64,000 nucleotides of DNA. Origin: Phycisphaerae bacterium (GTDB lineage: Bacteria; Planctomycetota; Phycisphaerae; UBA1845; Fen-1342). Below are positions 13,371-29,815 of this stretch, one piece after another. Location: positions 1 through 64,000 of the forward strand of contig JAGNKU010000018.1 of NCBI GenBank assembly GCA_017999985.1. Reading direction: 5' to 3'. A model generated the notes under the pieces. That model had not been told where the DNA came from, made no database searches, and saw only the letters and a list, made by a program, of their open reading frames with translations. The stretch's first letter is position 1. Each line of letters begins with the position of its first letter. A program made the position numbers and the translations under genes.

Positions 13371-15803
13371 TTACGGATTGACGATCACCAGGATCAGCGC
13401 GGTCACGCCCGGGCCGGTCGTGATGGTGTCGACGCCCCCCAGACCATTCACGGTGAGCTGGTCGTTGGCCGGCTCCGGGTGCATGATCCGCGTGGTGGCG
13501 GAAAGCCCCGAAACGACCACCGTCCCGCCGCTGGCCGCAATGTTGATCGTGTCAGGCAACTGCGTGCCGTTGACTGTAATCGCATCCGGCTGCGTATCGC
13601 CGGTGCCGCCGCCGAGCGTGCCGGCGAGATCAATGCTCACGTCGGCGACGTCGGTAGGGCTCAAGTCGTTCACGGTGACGAGATCGGCGCCGCCCAGCGC
13701 TCTGACGTCAACCTGCTCCACGTCGTCCAGGTCCATGACAATGCTGCCCACGTTGCGGGTGAAACGCAGCCGCCCGCCGTTGGCGGAGAGATCCAGCGTT
13801 TCGGCGGCACCCGAGCCGTTGAAGGTCAGAGCGTCCGTGCCGGCCTGGCCCTCGACCGTGTCACTGCCATCGCCCGGGTCCCACTGGAAGACATCGTCGC
13901 CGGCCCCAAGCAAGGTCACGTCGTTACCCTGGTTGCCGTCGATGAAGTCGTTGTCGTCGCCGCCGATCAGGAGGTCAGCGCCATTGCTGCCCAGCAACGT
14001 GTCGTCGCCGCTGCCGCCATCCAGCGTGAACGGGATGGCCAGACCCGCCAGATTCCCTGTACAGGCCATCGTGTCCGCGCCACCCAGTCCATTGATCGTC
14101 AGCGACAGCGCGCCGCTGACGGCCACCGCCGCGGAATAGCCGGTCGCATCCACCCGCGCCTGCGTACCGTTCGCTGTGAGCGTGATCGTGTCCGGACCGG
14201 CCGAGCCATTCACGTTCACAACGTCGCCGCCGACGCCATTCACGACAACCTGGTCGCTCAGCTCGTAGCCTTGCACGCGCACATCGGCGGCCAGGTCAAC
14301 GACTACGAACCCTGCGTCCGCCGAGATGTTCAACACATCCGCCGCCGGCGTTCCGACGATGTTGACCGCATCCGCCTGTGCGTCGCCGACGTTGCCGAAC
14401 GTGGCAAGGTCGACATTCACCAGCGCGGCGTCGGTGCCGAACAGGTCGTTTGCGTTGATCATGTCGGCACCGCCCAGCGCGTTCACGTCCACCTGTTCTA
14501 CATCGTCCAGGTCCATGACGATGTTGCCCACATCGCGAGTCAGGCGCAAGCGCGACCCGTTGGCGGATAGAGTAATGGTCTCGTTGGCGCTCGAACCGTT
14601 GAAATGCAGCGCGTCCGTGCCGGCCTGGCCCTCGACCGTGTCACTGCCGTCGCCGGGGTCCCACTGGAAGATGTCATCGCCGGCCCCAAGCAGGGCCACG
14701 TCGTTACCCTGGTTGCCGTCGATGAAGTCATTGTCGTCGCCGCCGATCAGGAGGTCAGCACCATTGCTGCCCAGCAAGACGTCGTGGCCGCCGCCGCCGT
14801 CAACGGCGATCTGAATCAGGGCGGCCAGGTTCCCCGTGCAACTGAGCGTGTCATCTCCGCCGTTGGCTTTCAGGACGAGGCTCTCGCAGCCGCCGAGGTC
14901 GAGGAAGAACGGAGCGGGACTGAGGCGGTCGAAGCGGACGCGTGTGCCGTTGGCGGTTACAGTGCATTCCTCGGCGCCATCGTCGCCACGGACCTCGACG
15001 GTGTCGAACCCGCCGACGTCCTCAATGAAATCCGTGTCGTCGCCGGGTTCCCAGATGAAGTGGTCATCGCCGGCGCCCACAAACACGTCATCGTTCCCGG
15101 GTCCGCCGTAGTAGGTCTCCGGGCCACTGCCCCCCAGCAGCGTGTCATTGCCAGTCCCGCCGTAGATCGTGGTCGCCTCCGTGTCCGTGAAGGCGCCGTA
15201 CTGCTCATCGATCCAGACCGTGTCGTGGCCACTGCCTGCGTTGATCACGATGCAGGTGAACTGACCGCGGTCGAAGCTGAAGTCGACGGTGCCGTCGTTC
15301 TCGACATCGATTTGCAGGATCGTCGGCCAGCCGGGCAGCAGGCGGAGCGCCAACACCGAACTCGCGGCCGTGCCGATGACGTGCAGGCAGCCGTCCTGGA
15401 GGTACGCCTGGTGACTGGCGCAGTCGGGGCTGGCGGGCTGATTTTCACCGCTGAAGCAACGCTGGAAGGCGGCGGAATCCGCCAAGTCCAGGTCGGTGTC
15501 GAAGTCGTAATCGAATTCGCCTGCCTGGCAGGCGGGGCCGGCCGCGAGATCCGGGCCGGTCAGACACGCCGCCAGGTATGCGAAGTCAGCGGGGTCCACG
15601 TCGCCGTCGCGGTCGTAGTCGCCGGGGATGATCGCAGGGCAGCCGTCGGCGTCGACGGGCGCACCGGGGACCGTGTTCGGACAGAGGTCCACGTTGTCGC
15701 AGACGCCGTCACCGTCGGTGTCGCTGATGCAGGCCCCCAGCGCGGGTGTGCCCGTTGCCAGGCAGGCACCTACCAGGCAAACCAACCACTTGTGCGATTT
15801 CAT
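13371..15803 (-). CDS. Secreted RTX-like calcium-repeat protein with dockerin-like domain
   Basis: This is an 810-residue exported protein. ATG 15803 is preferred: GAGAGG lies 7 nt upstream and a signal peptide (MKSHKWLVCLVGACLATG...) follows directly. Residues 25-60 resemble a TSP3 calcium segment and 65-120 a dockerin/EF-hand pair (DYDRDGDVDPADFAYLAA). The rest is built of RTX/hemolysin-type units such as GGTGNDTLLGGSGPE and GADLLIGGDDNDF, plus beta-rich linker modules ending in DLDDVEQVDV. Two long modules are near copies of each other. The last residues (LILVIVNP) resemble no sorting signal I know. A structural or adhesive role is inferred; no enzyme domain is seen. Confidence 0.85.
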   Translation of the reverse strand: MKSHKWLVCLVGACLATGTPALGACISDTDGDGVCDNVDLCPNTVPGAPVDADGCPAIIPGDYDRDGDVDPADFAYLAACLTGPDLAAGPACQAGEFDYDFDTDLDLADSAAFQRCFSGENQPASPDCASHQAYLQDGCLHVIGTAASSVLALRLLPGWPTILQIDVENDGTVDFSFDRGQFTCIVINAGSGHDTVWIDEQYGAFTDTEATTIYGGTGNDTLLGGSGPETYYGGPGNDDVFVGAGDDHFIWEPGDDTDFIEDVGGFDTVEVRGDDGAEECTVTANGTRVRFDRLSPAPFFLDLGGCESLVLKANGGDDTLSCTGNLAALIQIAVDGGGGHDVLLGSNGADLLIGGDDNDFIDGNQGNDVALLGAGDDIFQWDPGDGSDTVEGQAGTDALHFNGSSANETITLSANGSRLRLTRDVGNIVMDLDDVEQVDVNALGGADMINANDLFGTDAALVNVDLATFGNVGDAQADAVNIVGTPAADVLNISADAGFVVVDLAADVRVQGYELSDQVVVNGVGGDVVNVNGSAGPDTITLTANGTQARVDATGYSAAVAVSGALSLTINGLGGADTMACTGNLAGLAIPFTLDGGSGDDTLLGSNGADLLIGGDDNDFIDGNQGNDVTLLGAGDDVFQWDPGDGSDTVEGQAGTDALTFNGSGAAETLDLSANGGRLRFTRNVGSIVMDLDDVEQVDVRALGGADLVTVNDLSPTDVADVSIDLAGTLGGGTGDTQPDAITVNGTQLPDTINIAASGGTVVVSGLSATTRIMHPEPANDQLTVNGLGGVDTITTGPGVTALILVIVNP
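13690..14010 (-). repeat. Internal duplication, copy nearer the 3' end
   Basis: About 320 bp encoding an RTX module, repeated 780 bp away at 14470-14790 with roughly 90 percent identity. The stretch beginning GCGTCCGTGCCGGCC at 13831 recurs at 14611 almost unchanged. Confidence 0.8.
14470..14790 (-). repeat. Internal duplication, copy nearer the 5' end
   Basis: Partner of the copy at 13690-14010. The period is 780 bp (260 codons), so the duplicated unit is a whole RTX-plus-linker module. Confidence 0.8.
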
Positions 15804-16163: not shown

Positions 16164-16481
16164 TCACTTGCCGTCGACATCGCCGCAACTGCCGTCCCGC
16201 AGACGCAGTTGTTGGCCGTCGCCCTGGCCGCCAACACCGTTGCCGCCGTTGCCCCCGCCGGCGCCGCGGTTCTGATACCGATACTGGCTCCCGTCGCCAG
16301 TGCAGGAACCATCCATCAGCCGCAGGTGCAGCCGCGTCTGCAGTTGGTCACCGACGGCAACCGGGTCGACACCCTGTACCGTCAAGACCGCTTTGGCGTC
16401 CGACGGCACGTCGGTCAGATCACAGCCGGCCGCCACACAGAGCACAAGAGCCGGCACCAGCGCAGACAAAACACGTTTCAT
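16164..16481 (-). CDS. Small lipoprotein, divergent from the ECF sigma gene
   Basis: This 105-residue lipoprotein has the lipobox LCVAAGC, with the acylated Cys near 20, and AAGGAG 8 nt before ATG 16481. The body is short and contains two copies of an LRLxDGSC motif, one mid-protein and one near the end, separated by a Gly-rich segment (GAGGGNGGNGVGGQGDG). No family was recognised. It lies head-to-head with the sigma-factor gene, 172 bp apart, so it may share regulation with that operon; this is inference. Confidence 0.7.
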   Translation of the reverse strand: MKRVLSALVPALVLCVAAGCDLTDVPSDAKAVLTVQGVDPVAVGDQLQTRLHLRLMDGSCTGDGSQYRYQNRGAGGGNGGNGVGGQGDGQQLRLRDGSCGDVDGK

Positions 16482-16653
16482 CGCAGCTTCTCCTTCGCCG
16501 GGGGCCATCGAATTCGTATCGCGCCCGACCCAGCTGTTAATGGCTCGCCTGCACGTTGCGTCCTGGGACGATCCGTGCGACCATCGATTCAACGCCGCCG
16601 CGGTGGATGCCCTGCGGTCAGATTCCGAAAGCCAGACGGTTTGCCGAGCCCCC

Positions 16654-17226
16654 ATGGCGCCTGACACGACCCAACCCGGATCTGAAGGGCTGACGGACTA
16701 CGAGCTTATGGCCCGGGCTGGACAGGGCAACCGTGACGCGCTCGGTACGCTCGTTCAGCGACACCAAGCAAAAGTGGTCGGGCTCGCGTTTCGCTTTCTG
16801 GGACGCTGGGATGCTGCCGAGGACGTCGCCCAGGATGTTTTCGTGCGGGTCTGGCGGGCTGCGGCCACCTTTCGCCCGGAAGCCCAGTTCACAACCTGGC
16901 TCTATCGCCTCGCCACCAACCTGTGCTGGGACCGGCGGCGCCAGGCAGCCCGCGACCTACGGCTGCGCGCCGCGGCGCCTACGCCGGGAAGCGCTGACCC
17001 GCCTTTGGCGACGCTGGCGAGCCGGGACCGAATCAGGCGTGTTCAGGAGGCAGTGGCCGAGCTGCCGGATCGCCAGCGTCTGGCGGTCATCCTGCACCGC
17101 TACCAGGGGCTATCGCACAAGGAAATTGCCGACGCGACGGGCTGGAGCGAAAGCGCCGTCGAGTCGTGCCTGGTCCGGGCTTACGAGAACCTGAGGAAGT
17201 CCTTATCAGATATGAGGTTAGAGTGA
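16654..17226 (+). CDS. ECF-type RNA polymerase sigma factor
   Basis: This 190-residue group 4 sigma factor has a region 2 at about 38-105 (AEDVAQDVFVRVW, FTTWLYRLATNL) and a region 4 at about 133-185 (LPDRQRLAVILHRYQGLSHKEIADATGWSES split by a short turn, with a helix-turn-helix). Regions 1 and 3 are missing, as expected for ECF factors. ATG 16654 gives the standard N-terminus, and an upstream extension would run through the divergent promoter region. The next gene is its likely anti-sigma factor, 93 bp downstream. Target promoters are unknown, and I could not pick out an autoregulated -35/-10 pair. Confidence 0.93.
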   Translation: MAPDTTQPGSEGLTDYELMARAGQGNRDALGTLVQRHQAKVVGLAFRFLGRWDAAEDVAQDVFVRVWRAAATFRPEAQFTTWLYRLATNLCWDRRRQAARDLRLRAAAPTPGSADPPLATLASRDRIRRVQEAVAELPDRQRLAVILHRYQGLSHKEIADATGWSESAVESCLVRAYENLRKSLSDMRLE

Positions 17227-17319
17227 TTACGGTCATCGGTGCCACCGGACGCGCGACAGGCGGTTTCTCGCCGCAGGTGTGCCCGGCGGGAATCGTTCAA
17301 AACGTGTGGAGAACCGGTT

Positions 17320-17805
17320 ATGGAACACGTGCGGCAGACTGAACTGATCCAGTTGGCGGCCGATGAGCTCGCCGACCCGCGCCGCGCGGAAGTGGAACGC
17401 CACCTGGCGGAGTGTTCCACGTGCCAGAGACGATACGAGCGGCAGGCGGATCTCTGGCGCACCCTCGGTCAATGGACTCCTGAATTCACGGCGCGCGAGC
17501 TGCTGCCCGGCCTCGAGCGCAAGTTGGCTGCGGCGTCGGTAGCGCTGCATCCGTTCTGGTCCAATGTCGCGCGCGTCTCTCGCGTTGCGGCTGCGATCAT
17601 GATCGGCGTCGGCGCGGGCTATGGTGCTGCCCACCGTTGGCAGCCCACGCGACCAGGCCCACAACCAGTTGCCGGTGCCGAGGTCGAAGAAGCCGCCATG
17701 GACGCGCTCGGGGTGCAGTACATCGGAAATATCTCGCCGGCCGGGCTCTACGCCGTCCTCCAGGACGTGCCGGCCGACGCCGAAGCCGGGGAGGGGCAGT
17801 TATGA
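17320..17805 (+). CDS. Zinc-finger anti-sigma factor, single-pass membrane protein
   Basis: This 161-residue protein starts at ATG 17320, with GGAG 8 nt upstream. The N-terminal domain carries the H-x3-C-x2-C zinc-binding anti-sigma motif (His28, Cys32, Cys35 in RHLAECSTC). A single transmembrane helix follows at about 86-104. The periplasmic tail ends with a short conserved-looking segment (MDALGVQYIGNISPAGLYAVL). It should hold the ECF sigma factor at the membrane and release it on an envelope signal. Its stop overlaps the start of the LTxxQ protein gene as ATGA, so the two are translationally coupled. Confidence 0.88.
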   Translation: MEHVRQTELIQLAADELADPRRAEVERHLAECSTCQRRYERQADLWRTLGQWTPEFTARELLPGLERKLAAASVALHPFWSNVARVSRVAAAIMIGVGAGYGAAHRWQPTRPGPQPVAGAEVEEAAMDALGVQYIGNISPAGLYAVLQDVPADAEAGEGQL

Positions 17806-18431
17806 ATCTGCGACGCTACGGTGGCTTGTCGATGATCGCGGTGGCGTGTGCCGCGGGCAGCTATCTCGCGACGTACGCCCTGCAGCAACAGGGGCATCCC
17901 GCCTGGACCGGTGGGCCTGCAACCGCCGCCGCGCAGAGTGTAACAAACTGGCTGGGGTTGACTGCGCAGCAGGCCGACGGTGTGCGCGAAATCGAAGCCA
18001 GTTTTGCCGCCGACCGCGCACCGCTCGAAGCAAAGCTGGCCGCGGAGCGCGAGCGCCTCGCGACCATGCTTGAGGACCCGGCCACCGGCAGCGAGGCGAT
18101 CCTGCAGCAGGTCGAGAACGTGATCGCGGCGCACGATGCGCTGGAGCGGAGGGTAGCCACCCATCTGGTGGCGATGCGGCCGCATCTGACTGCCGCGCAA
18201 CAGAGACGCCTGTTTGACCGCTTCGCCAGCGGTGTGCGCGAAGGCGCCGGTTGGCGCTGGCGCAACGGCCAACTGGAAAATGTCGAAGGTGAACGACGAG
18301 GCGGTGGTCCGCCGCCGGGTCGCGGACCTGGACGCGGGCGTGGGCCGGGCGGTGGATTTGACGTACCCGGCCGCCACAGCGAGCCCGCCACGACGGCACC
18401 TGCGTCTCGATCGGAAGGAGTACGGCCATGA
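17802..18431 (+). CDS. LTxxQ (Spy/CpxP/CnrX-like) periplasmic sensor protein
   Basis: This 209-residue protein has an N-terminal membrane anchor (about 8-27) and an all-helical periplasmic domain. It carries two LTxxQ-type motifs, LTAQQ at 53-57 and LTAAQQ at 129-134, the hallmark of Spy, CpxP and the metal sensors ZraP and CnrX. His121 and Met125 (THLVAM) have the same i, i+4 spacing as two metal ligands of CnrX. Whether they bind metal is inference. The C-terminal 50 residues are Gly/Pro/Arg-rich. It sits directly after sigma and anti-sigma genes, the same gene set as the cnr nickel/cobalt signalling loci, and overlaps both neighbours by ATGA. Confidence 0.75.
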   Translation: MNLRRYGGLSMIAVACAAGSYLATYALQQQGHPAWTGGPATAAAQSVTNWLGLTAQQADGVREIEASFAADRAPLEAKLAAERERLATMLEDPATGSEAILQQVENVIAAHDALERRVATHLVAMRPHLTAAQQRRLFDRFASGVREGAGWRWRNGQLENVEGERRGGGPPPGRGPGRGRGPGGGFDVPGRHSEPATTAPASRSEGVRP

Positions 18432-18844
18432 AACGGCTAGCAGTACTCGCATTTGTCCTATTGGTGGGCGTAAGCCTGGCACAGGCCCAAGGCGGGAGCG
18501 CCTGGGGCCGGGATCGTCGCGGTGGACGAGGACCCGCGGCAGTTCAAGCCCTGCATGGCAAAAACCAGATGCGTAGCACTCCGGACAGCGTGCAGCGCCC
18601 AATGCGTCAGCGGCTAGGCGATCCCTACAACTGCCAAGCAACGGATAGCCAACCAGTGCGGCAGCGGCTCCGCGACCCTGCAAGTTGCGCGCGCCTCAGC
18701 CCTGCCGGCCGCGGCAATCAGGCCGGAATGGGCTGGGGCGGCATGCGCGGCGGTGGCGGTCGTGTCAGTTGGAACACACTGTGCTGCCCATATTGTGGCT
18801 ACCGCGGTGGTCAGGGTGGCTGGCGCCACGGCTGGGGTCGCTGA
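18428..18844 (+). CDS. Small secreted Gly/Arg-rich protein with CCPYCGY motif
   Basis: This 138-residue protein has a clean signal peptide (1-20, ending AQA) and its start overlaps the preceding gene as ATGA. The middle holds two similar units, MRQRLGDPYNCQ and VRQRLRDPASCA, about 20 residues apart, each with one Cys. The C-terminus has LCCPYCGYRGG, a possible metal-binding Cys cluster, in a Gly/Trp/His-rich setting. No known family was recognised. Its place in the sigma operon suggests a periplasmic partner of the LTxxQ protein. Confidence 0.7.
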   Translation: MKRLAVLAFVLLVGVSLAQAQGGSAWGRDRRGGRGPAAVQALHGKNQMRSTPDSVQRPMRQRLGDPYNCQATDSQPVRQRLRDPASCARLSPAGRGNQAGMGWGGMRGGGGRVSWNTLCCPYCGYRGGQGGWRHGWGR

Positions 18845-18845
18845 C

Positions 18846-18866
18846 GCAGGTCGCAGGTCGCAGGTC
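18846..18866 (+). repeat. Three tandem GCAGGTC units
   Basis: A short perfect tandem repeat (3 x 7 bp) just after the stop of the secreted-protein gene. Probably a slippage product. Confidence 0.7.
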
Positions 18867-18905
18867 GCCGCAGCCGTCTGAGGGCCTCTTATCCGGGAGC
18901 TGCCC

Positions 18906-19466
18906 ATGACTGAACGCCCCCCGGCCACGAAACAGCCGCGTCACCCCGCACGCATGCAGATGGTCAACTTTGTGATCGATGTGGTGACGCTACTCGTCGT
19001 ATTGGCGATGGCCGCAACGGGTCTGCTCCTCAAGTTCGTCTTGCCGCCGGGCAACCGAGGCGGTCAGGGTGTGCAGCTCTGGGGCTTCACCCGGCACGAA
19101 TGGGGCGACGTTCACTTCTGGCTCTCCGTAGCCATGGGAGTGCTGTTCATCGTGCACGTTGCCCTGCACTGGACCTGGGTCTGCGCGATCGTGGCGCGAT
19201 GGTTTCCAGTGGCAGGCGCGTCACCTGGACAGGCGTCAGCGAGGCGGCGTTCAGCCTACGGTGCCGGCTTCCTGGTTGCCGTGACCGCGCTGCTCTTCGG
19301 GTTCGCGTGGGTCGCCGGGGCGAGCGCGACCCGACCAACCAAACAATCCGAGCAGGGTGGTCGTGGGTATCGCGGTGGCCGAAATGCCAGCGCCGTGCGC
19401 GACGTCGGCGGCACGAGTCCGGCAGTCCGTGAGCGAGGTCACCGCGGGGTGGCCGTTGAACCGTGA
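18906..19466 (+). CDS. DUF4405-type membrane protein (cytochrome b561-like fold)
   Basis: This 186-residue protein has three clear membrane helices, at about 22-46, 65-95 and 115-135. The segment GFTRHEWGDVHFWLSVAMG followed by FIVHVALHW is typical of the DUF4405 family. Its paired His residues lie in membrane helices, suggesting heme b binding; that is family-level inference. The C-terminal 45 residues are hydrophilic and Arg/Gly-rich. GAGCTGCCC precedes the ATG. It is the fifth plus-strand gene of the cluster that starts with the ECF sigma factor, 61 nt after the previous stop. Confidence 0.75.
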   Translation: MTERPPATKQPRHPARMQMVNFVIDVVTLLVVLAMAATGLLLKFVLPPGNRGGQGVQLWGFTRHEWGDVHFWLSVAMGVLFIVHVALHWTWVCAIVARWFPVAGASPGQASARRRSAYGAGFLVAVTALLFGFAWVAGASATRPTKQSEQGGRGYRGGRNASAVRDVGGTSPAVRERGHRGVAVEP

Positions 19467-19884
19467 GCACAAGGTCGTGCAGGCAGGAAGCTACTGCTGA
19501 ACGATGAGCTGCGCTGGCAGCGCCAGGCGCAGGTGCGATTCTGGCCTTCGCACAGCCCGAGCGCATTCCGAGGGAATGCGCTGCAGTGATAGTTTGCGCC
19601 GAACGCAGGAACACATTCCACGACACGTCTGCGGAACAAAGGCGCCGCCAGCCTGATCGTCGCCGGTCACGTCACCATTGGGCTGAGGTGCCGCGTGTGT
19701 GCTGAGGGGAGATTCCGGAAATACCACACGAGAATTCGGGTACGGCCCGCAGGTAGTGCCCATCCCAAGCGTTCAACGTCGGGATGTGGAGAGTGGTCTC
19801 CCATCGCACGCGATTCTGACAAGGTGTGCCTGCCGACGCAGTGGAGCATCCGTGCAGCGCTCACCTCATGGAAGGAGACGTGGC
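19467..19884. other. Spacer between DUF4405 and DUF2202 genes
   Basis: I see no gene and no repeat. The length suggests the downstream ferritin-like gene has its own promoter rather than being read only from the sigma operon. Confidence 0.4.
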
Positions 19885-20736
19885 ATGAGACACACGAGTT
19901 GGATGGTGGTGGTGGTCGCATTGCTGGCGAGCGGCGCGGCCTCGACAATGGGCGGGGTGCGGATCGAAGGCGCGATCACCGCGATTGACGTCGAGTCGCA
20001 GCAATTGGTGGTCGCCAACACGACCGTGCAGGTCACGGAACAGACCGTGATCAAGCAGAACGGCCAGACGATCCCGTTTGAGAATCTGGCGGTCGGCATG
20101 ACGGTGGCCGCATGCGGAACGATGCAGGATGGTGTGCTGGTCGCCAACCGGATCACGGTCAAGCAGTGCCAGGCGGCGGGCGGCGGCACAGCCCGCATGT
20201 CAATCAATGGGACGAGCCAGCAGCCCCGCGTGCGACCGCTAAGCCCCGCGGAACAAGATGGCCTGCTCTTCATGCGCGAGGAAGAGAAACTCGCGCGCGA
20301 CGTCTACTTGACGCTGGCGGCGCAGTGGCAAAGCGCGATCTTCGCGAACATCGCGGCGAGCGAGCAAACGCACATGAACTCGATTCTGACGTTGCTGATG
20401 CGCTACAACGTACCCGACCCCGTGGCCGGGATGGGCGTGGGCGAGTTTGCGACCGAGCACTTCCAGACGCTTTATACCGACTTGGTCGCCCTGGGCAGCC
20501 AGTCCCTGATCAACGCGTTGACCGTGGGCGCGACGATCGAGGAAATCGACATCGTTGACCTCTTCGATCGACTCGAAGACGTGACGCACCAGGACATCCA
20601 GCGGGTCTATCAGAACCTCGAGCGTGGCTCGGAGAACCACCTGCGGGCCTTCGTCGGCCAGCTGGCGAGCCGCGGCGTGACCTACGAACCTCAGTATCTC
20701 GATCCGGAGTTCTATCAGCAGATCATCGGCGGATAG
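19885..20736 (+). CDS. Exported DUF5666-DUF2202 protein, ferritin-like
   Basis: This 283-residue protein starts at ATG 19885 with GGAG 8 nt upstream and has a signal peptide (1-24). About 27-95 form a small beta domain like DUF5666 (IEGAITAIDVESQQLVV ... LVANRITVK). About 120-275 form a four-helix DUF2202 domain of the ferritin superfamily. It carries Glu and His in the expected repeating pattern: FMREEEKLARDVY, ASEQTHM, IEEIDIVDL and ERGSENHLRAF. Diiron or other metal binding is likely but unproven. A periplasmic ferritin-like protein beside an LTxxQ metal-sensor operon fits a metal or redox stress role. Confidence 0.82.
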   Translation: MRHTSWMVVVVALLASGAASTMGGVRIEGAITAIDVESQQLVVANTTVQVTEQTVIKQNGQTIPFENLAVGMTVAACGTMQDGVLVANRITVKQCQAAGGGTARMSINGTSQQPRVRPLSPAEQDGLLFMREEEKLARDVYLTLAAQWQSAIFANIAASEQTHMNSILTLLMRYNVPDPVAGMGVGEFATEHFQTLYTDLVALGSQSLINALTVGATIEEIDIVDLFDRLEDVTHQDIQRVYQNLERGSENHLRAFVGQLASRGVTYEPQYLDPEFYQQIIGG

Positions 20737-21020: not shown

Positions 21021-21093
21021 GCGGGTGTAGCTCAATTGGTAGAGCATCAGCCTTCCAAGCTGAATGTTGCCGGTTCGAACCCGGTCGCCCGCT
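21021..21093 (+). tRNA. tRNA-Gly (anticodon UCC)
   Basis: A 73-nt cloverleaf with acceptor stem GCGGGTG/CGCCCGC, D-arm GCTC/GAGC, anticodon stem TCAGC/GCTGA with loop CTTCCAA (anticodon TCC), T-arm GCCGG/CCGGT (terminal pair a wobble) with loop TTCGAAC, and discriminator T. CCA is not encoded. TATCAT at 20995-21000 lies 21 nt upstream and may be the -10 box. Its 3' half recurs, decayed, at 23322-23366. Confidence 0.97.
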
Positions 21094-26869: not shown

Positions 26870-27176
26870 GGCCTGCCCTTTCGAAAAGCTGGTGGGCGTG
26901 CATCGTACGGGCGGCGACAAGCGCATCGCAACGGCGGGGCGGGAGCGCATTTCCAACGTTGGTCAAGCGACGAAGAATAGGGGCGGCGCTGGAGTTCGCC
27001 CTGAACTGGCCCCGGGCCTGATGACTCCTGCCCGGTAGTGTAGTGCCTCATTGAAACCGCACCGTATCCGAGCCGCGACATTCGCGTCGCGCAGTGGCTC
27101 CGCGCGGCCTGAAGGCCGCGGCTCAGCGCGCGATGCGATGCCGCATTTGCGCGGCGCTCACGTGGTAGGAGTCGCG
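26870..27176. other. Divergent intergenic region with a short palindrome
   Basis: Holds the leader regions of the C1-like peptidase (minus) and crcB (plus). At 27103-27120 an 8-bp perfect inverted repeat, CGCGGCCT-GA-AGGCCGCG, is present. No gene is seen. Confidence 0.5.
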
Positions 27177-29467: not shown

Positions 29468-29588
29468 GCCGCGTGGTCTCTCGCCAGCCTGCTGTGAGCG
29501 TACACGTTTGATCAGGGCGGGGTGGACACAGTGGAGGCCTGAGGTACCACCGCAGGCCGGTGGGCCAGCGACATCTGGCAGGCTGAAT

Positions 29589-29671
29589 TGGGCGCGGGTG
29601 GATTCGAACCACCGTAGGCGTAAGCCAACGGGTTTACAGCCCGTCTCCTTTGGCCACTCGGACACACGCCC
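29589..29671 (-). tRNA. tRNA-Tyr (anticodon GUA)
   Basis: An 83-nt class II tRNA on the minus strand: acceptor GGGCGTG/CGCGCCC, anticodon stem ACGGG/CCCGT with loop CTGTAAA, and a long variable arm (TGGCTTACGCC) as expected for Tyr. The T-loop is TTCGAAT, the discriminator is A and CCA is not encoded. Confidence 0.97.
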
Positions 29672-29815
29672 ACAAAGCTCCGCCGCGGCGGGGCCCCGGT
29701 ACGTCCGTCAGCCAGGAAAGATACCGCCTGGGTCGCCTCGAGGCAAGCCCAAGGGCCGGCGCCCGCTGTGCGTCACCCCGTGCCCAACGCAGTCACAGGC
29801 CCGCGCGCGTCCGCG

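Follow-up and report, generated by a model that had tools for sequence, protein, structure and literature searches.

The locus analysed here probably encodes a CnrX-like sigma factor system that senses metal (or redox) stress in the cell envelope, and in which sequestration or oxidation effectors take the place of an efflux pump. It lies in a stretch of 64,000 nt, referred to as the window, from a Phycisphaerae bacterium (GCA_017999985.1, contig JAGNKU010000018.1, positions 1 to 64,000; genome of 5.23 Mb). Sensor-sigma systems of this kind are already known. The combination of a zinc-class anti-sigma factor and a CnrX-like sensor with this promoter, feedback design, and effector set appears to be new; no description of the system was found in the open-access literature, and many subscription papers lie outside that scope.

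Table 1. Genes and predicted promoters of the locus (window positions)
Feature	Position	Strand	Evidence or sequence
Small lipoprotein, divergent from sigma	16164..16481	-	lipobox-like AAGC; RLRDGSC-type motif
Predicted ECF promoter, lipoprotein	16588..16617	-	CCGCAGG-N16-CGTTGAA
ECF sigma factor	16654..17226	+	Sigma70_r2 5e-20, r4_2 5e-16
Predicted ECF promoter, anti-sigma, 19 nt before ATG	17271..17300	+	CCGCAGG-N16-CGTTCAA
Membrane zinc anti-sigma, one predicted TM helix	17320..17805	+	zf-HC2 2e-5; HLAECSTC = HxxxCxxC
Membrane-anchored CnrX/NccX-like sensor, Gly/Arg-rich tail	17802..18431	+	Metal_resist PF13801 2.5e-11
Small secreted Cys protein	18428..18844	+	RQRLRDPxSC-like repeats and CCPYCG; no family match
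DUF4405 membrane protein	18906..19466	+	DUF4405 1.7e-15; weak cytochrome b561 match
Predicted ECF promoter, DUF5666-DUF2202, about 108 nt upstream	19747..19776	+	CCGCAGG-N16-CGTTCAA
Exported DUF5666-DUF2202 (ferritin-like) protein	19885..20736	+	DUF5666 7.8e-11; DUF2202 5.3e-54

The genes of the locus are listed in Table 1. All those named in the original prediction were recovered in place and with the families it had assigned, except for the LTxxQ label given to the sensor. This protein scores above the cut-off of PF13801 (44.2 against 29.2 bits) and below that of PF07813 LTXXQ (18.8 against 24.3 bits), and is therefore better called a Metal_resist protein. The ATGA overlaps are real (17802-17805 and 18428-18431), and the anti-sigma operon probably ends with the DUF4405 gene. 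DUF2202 (PF09968, 182.8 against 22 bits) and DUF4405 (PF14358, 57.7 against 26.7 bits) were also well above their cut-offs, while the cytochrome b561 match of the DUF4405 protein remained below its own. Family searches gave no match for the lipoprotein or the Cys protein. The 5.23 Mb genome encodes no PF13801 protein besides the sensor and no second DUF2202 protein; it has two further DUF4405 matches. In the surroundings of the locus, a long adjoining protein (13371-15803, minus strand) carries RTX calcium-binding repeats, tRNA-Gly(TCC) lies just 3' of the DUF2202 gene (21021-21093), and the window also contains a fluoride riboswitch (crcB motif, 26976-27037, plus strand; 38.4 bits, gathering score 34) and tRNA-Tyr (29588-29672).

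The identification of the sensor as CnrX-type, part of the original claim, was borne out by sequence and by structure. The sensor alignment profile matched NccX with an E-value of 1.7e-6 and CnrX with 7.9e-6. The predicted structure was closest to CnrX (Z 10.5, rmsd 2.5, 109 residues aligned), whose chains alone reached a Z of 9 or more; ZraP, Spy, and CpxP followed with Z of 7-8. The mean pLDDT of this model is 66, rising to about 90 or more in the core helices (around 55-128), and Foldseek alone gave E-values of 7.5e-3 or weaker. Of the five CnrX metal ligands, which we take to be His42, His46, Glu63, His119, and Met123, three are kept: sensor Glu65, His121, and Met125 align with the last three, and Ala and Thr replace His42 and His46, respectively. 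A role in the CnrX metal site has been described for Met123 (PMC7689651), and in most relatives a hydrophobic residue stands at its position. The metal site varies among the 56 sensor domains compared, with an acidic residue and His/Tyr common and Met rare. A Cys near the second LTxxQ region, common in relatives, is absent from the window sensor. The anti-sigma factor belongs to the zinc class (class I), with zf-HC2 and HxxxCxxC in its N-terminal domain; this motif was observed in 43 of 46 anti-sigma rows.

The sigma, anti-sigma, and sensor genes form a block that recurs in many relatives, so that the arrangement is not due to chance; the conservation of the neighbourhood, on which the original prediction had been made to depend, thus stood. 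A search with the window sensor alone found the sensor in 20 of 101 relatives. With an alignment of 17 sensors as the query, the count was 43 among 397 genomes of the class, and the gene almost always forms part of the block. With a tighter sensor alignment, eight named planctomycete loci were obtained, from MAGs and mostly from Phycisphaerae. The order sigma, anti-sigma, sensor was kept in nearly all fetched loci, and the sensor domain is duplicated in one group of them. Lipoprotein homologues divergent from sigma were present in five further loci (L025, L026, L027, L031, and L035). Apart from this arrangement, the sensor gene of one relative (L138:4336-5316) runs on into a C-terminal region without a Pfam match, and an R-x-R-L-R-D-G/P-x-C type motif recurs in the small secreted proteins and lipoproteins of the regulon (16164-16481, 18428-18844, L114:4250-4498, L027, L031, and L035).

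A two-block motif was first seen by inspection of the sigma-upstream regions. In the scoring of these regions, 14 loci were perfect and 5 were one off, and among 800 shuffled sequences a score of 12 of 13 occurred once and 13 never. Read in reverse from the sigma-upstream copy, the motif is CCGCAGG-N16/17-CGTTNAA, with an A-rich flank upstream of CCGCAGG, as in an UP element. With this spacing, the whole genome holds three copies, all in this locus and all in sense orientation to their target genes. Spacings of N15-18 add one match (C20:41883, N15), which sits inside a large ORF and was taken as chance. The shared ECF promoter originally predicted upstream of 16654, 16481, and 19885 was found before the latter two; the copy upstream of 16654 faces the lipoprotein gene and not sigma, and the third site, before the anti-sigma operon, had not been foreseen. 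The opposite reading, with TTNAACG-N16-CCTGCGG as a promoter in the sense direction of sigma, was rejected on two grounds. It would turn the anti-sigma and DUF2202 copies away from the genes they precede, and loci such as L023, which have a same-strand pump gene ahead of sigma and no divergent target, lack the sigma-upstream copy.

Among the fetched loci, the 165 kb surrounding the block hold 45 sites with at most one mismatch, and the 509 kb outside it hold 4. These four precede DUF2202 in this window, DUF4405 in L116 and L118, and, in L114, a small Cys protein gene with a ferritin-like gene behind it. In relatives the motif is located before anti-sigma, DUF2202, DUF4405, DUF5666, and Cys/His-rich secreted genes, and the targets are either Cys/His-rich (L036, L116, and L120) or ferritin-like. 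An anti-sigma site with at most one mismatch is present in 18 of 41 loci, usually 16-20 nt from the ATG, and five dinucleotide shuffles gave 0 sites against 41 real ones. Every sigma factor with this site belongs to a single clade of 29 rows (support 96/92), and more distant sigma groups lack it; the class-wide background of the motif, estimated by eye, is low, at about 0.4 per genome. Because the motif was defined on part of the loci in which it was later counted, the independent support comes from the whole-genome count and from the anti-sigma, DUF2202, and DUF4405 sites. No sense-oriented site was found before sigma in this window or in any member of the 29-row clade, so that feedback would run through the anti-sigma and the sensor; a distant locus (L040) has one such site.

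DUF2202 and DUF4405 are linked to the block in relatives, as the original prediction had anticipated. A clear DUF2202 match was found in 18 genomes of the class, 17 with E < 1e-39 and one (G320) with a match cut by the contig end. In 12 of these 18 the gene lies within 5 kb of the block, usually divergent from sigma (G000, G012, G017, G050, G088, G292, G312, G316, G320, G338, G386, and G404); G386 is counted here with a contig that stops inside the anti-sigma gene, so its sensor would be outside the available sequence. In G014 and G330 the gene is at a contig end and linkage cannot be judged, and in four further genomes of the class (G071, G083, G194, and G367) no block was found nearby. Despite this, two promoter sites with one mismatch each precede DUF2202 in G367. 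No link between DUF2202 and the block was seen beyond the class. DUF4405 lies directly 3' of the sensor in L025 and adjoins a ferritin-like gene in L114 and L116. Other ferritin-like proteins may replace DUF2202 where it is absent (L114, L116, and L026), the match in L114 being weak and below cut-off. No paper mentioning DUF2202 was found in the open-access full-text literature, and nothing pointing to a function emerged from open-access papers on DUF2202, on MJ0754, or on DUF4405 together with sigma factors.

The genes, homologies, conservation, motif, and motif placement, as read from the sequences, are consistent with a self-contained envelope-stress regulon with CnrYXH-like logic. The membrane zinc anti-sigma would hold the sigma factor, and the membrane-anchored sensor would perceive a signal on the outer side of the inner membrane. 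Most likely this is a transition metal or a redox stress linked to metal, a metal signal being a reasoned guess. If the system works like CnrYXH (PMC7689651), the sensor would then loosen the anti-sigma and sigma would be let go. We infer this step, the reading of the CCGCAGG-N16/17-CGTTNAA promoters by the freed sigma factor, the signal, and the effector chemistry. Three targets are predicted: the lipoprotein gene; the operon that runs from anti-sigma through the sensor and Cys protein to DUF4405, and whose induction would close a negative feedback loop; and the gene for the exported, ferritin-like DUF2202 protein. Outside the cytoplasm, the effectors may bind metal or oxidise it, and DUF4405 could serve as a haem-based electron carrier. 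Metal or redox handling in that compartment is suggested by the ferritin-like domain, the DUF4405 protein with its sub-cut-off cytochrome b561 match, and the small Cys or Cys/His-rich secreted proteins.

Comparison with the CnrYXH system of Cupriavidus metallidurans and with NccX systems revealed both likeness and difference. The window shares with them adjacent genes for an ECF sigma factor, a membrane anti-sigma, and an anchored helical-hairpin sensor of the same family, and release of sigma by the sensor is likewise predicted. The parallel drawn originally with cnr extends to the sensor and not to the anti-sigma, which is of the zinc class, whereas CnrY is a class II anti-sigma (PMC7406223). 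The gene order (sigma, anti-sigma, sensor), the position of sigma outside the autoregulated operon, and the effectors (ferritin-like, DUF4405, and small secreted proteins in place of the CnrCBA pump; PMC7689651) differ as well. The effector set had been set apart from the efflux pumps of cnr loci, and in this genome no efflux pump was found among the predicted targets, the three sites preceding the lipoprotein, anti-sigma, and DUF2202 genes. However, multidrug-type RND or MacAB-like pump genes adjoin the block in some relatives (L023, L031, L033, L036, L037, L039, L125, L126, and L128), so this difference is not absolute. For the RND pumps, multidrug models score better and the CusA/CzcA model is below cut-off. 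MJ0754 of Methanocaldococcus jannaschii (PDB 3q4o), a DUF2202 protein for which no regulatory link was found in this analysis, matched the DUF2202 domain of the window along 168 aligned residues (E 2.6e-50); the window protein differs from it in being exported and in its fusion to DUF5666.

The multidrug type of these pumps, the partial retention of the metal ligands, and the alignment of Spy, CpxP, and ZraP with the sensor model would also fit a chaperone-like sensor that responds to misfolded envelope proteins or to antimicrobials and serves a general envelope-stress sigma factor, with metal as incidental. Those three proteins have a related helical-hairpin fold and are periplasmic partners of other stress pathways, whereas the window sensor has a predicted membrane anchor and its gene accompanies that of the anti-sigma. 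We consider such a sensor unlikely, as CnrX/NccX are clearly nearest in sequence and structure and the targets are Cys/His-rich and ferritin-like proteins, not folding factors. Somewhat less probable again is a response to redox stress (peroxide, oxygen, or nitric oxide), in which the zinc anti-sigma itself would act as a thiol switch and oxidants would be removed by the ferritin-like proteins and the haem proteins. The prevalence of HxxxCxxC and the predicted ferritin-like and cytochrome b-like effectors agree with it, but this reading leaves no clear role for a conserved CnrX-like sensor that is transcribed together with the anti-sigma, and many zinc anti-sigmas are not redox sensitive.

The motif itself could be the site of another regulator common to these genes, given that its tie to sigma is a sequence-based prediction and that the -35-like block is GC-rich and lacks the AAC contained in many ECF -35 elements. 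This is the most doubtful of the alternatives: the two blocks are 16-17 nt apart at a short, constant distance from the anti-sigma ATG, and the A-rich flank and the restriction to one sigma clade fit a sigma-dependent promoter. A CnrX-like system that senses metal or redox stress remains our preferred reading. More tentatively, and with rather less than even confidence, the locus may represent a distinct, class-wide Phycisphaerae ECF circuit, in which sigma, instead of driving itself, controls its anti-sigma and its sensor, and in which the effectors (ferritin-like DUF2202 or a substitute, haem-type DUF4405, and Cys/His-rich small proteins) make up an exported pathway for metal oxidation and sequestration and replace an efflux pump.

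These results provide a defined, checkable promoter and a small regulon for a sensor-sigma system outside Proteobacteria. The arrangement suggests an uncommon feedback design, with the inhibitor and the sensor under the control of sigma and sigma itself not. Furthermore, DUF2202 and DUF4405, two families of unknown function, are tied to one signal and would together serve a metal or redox response of the envelope, a shared role that can be tested.
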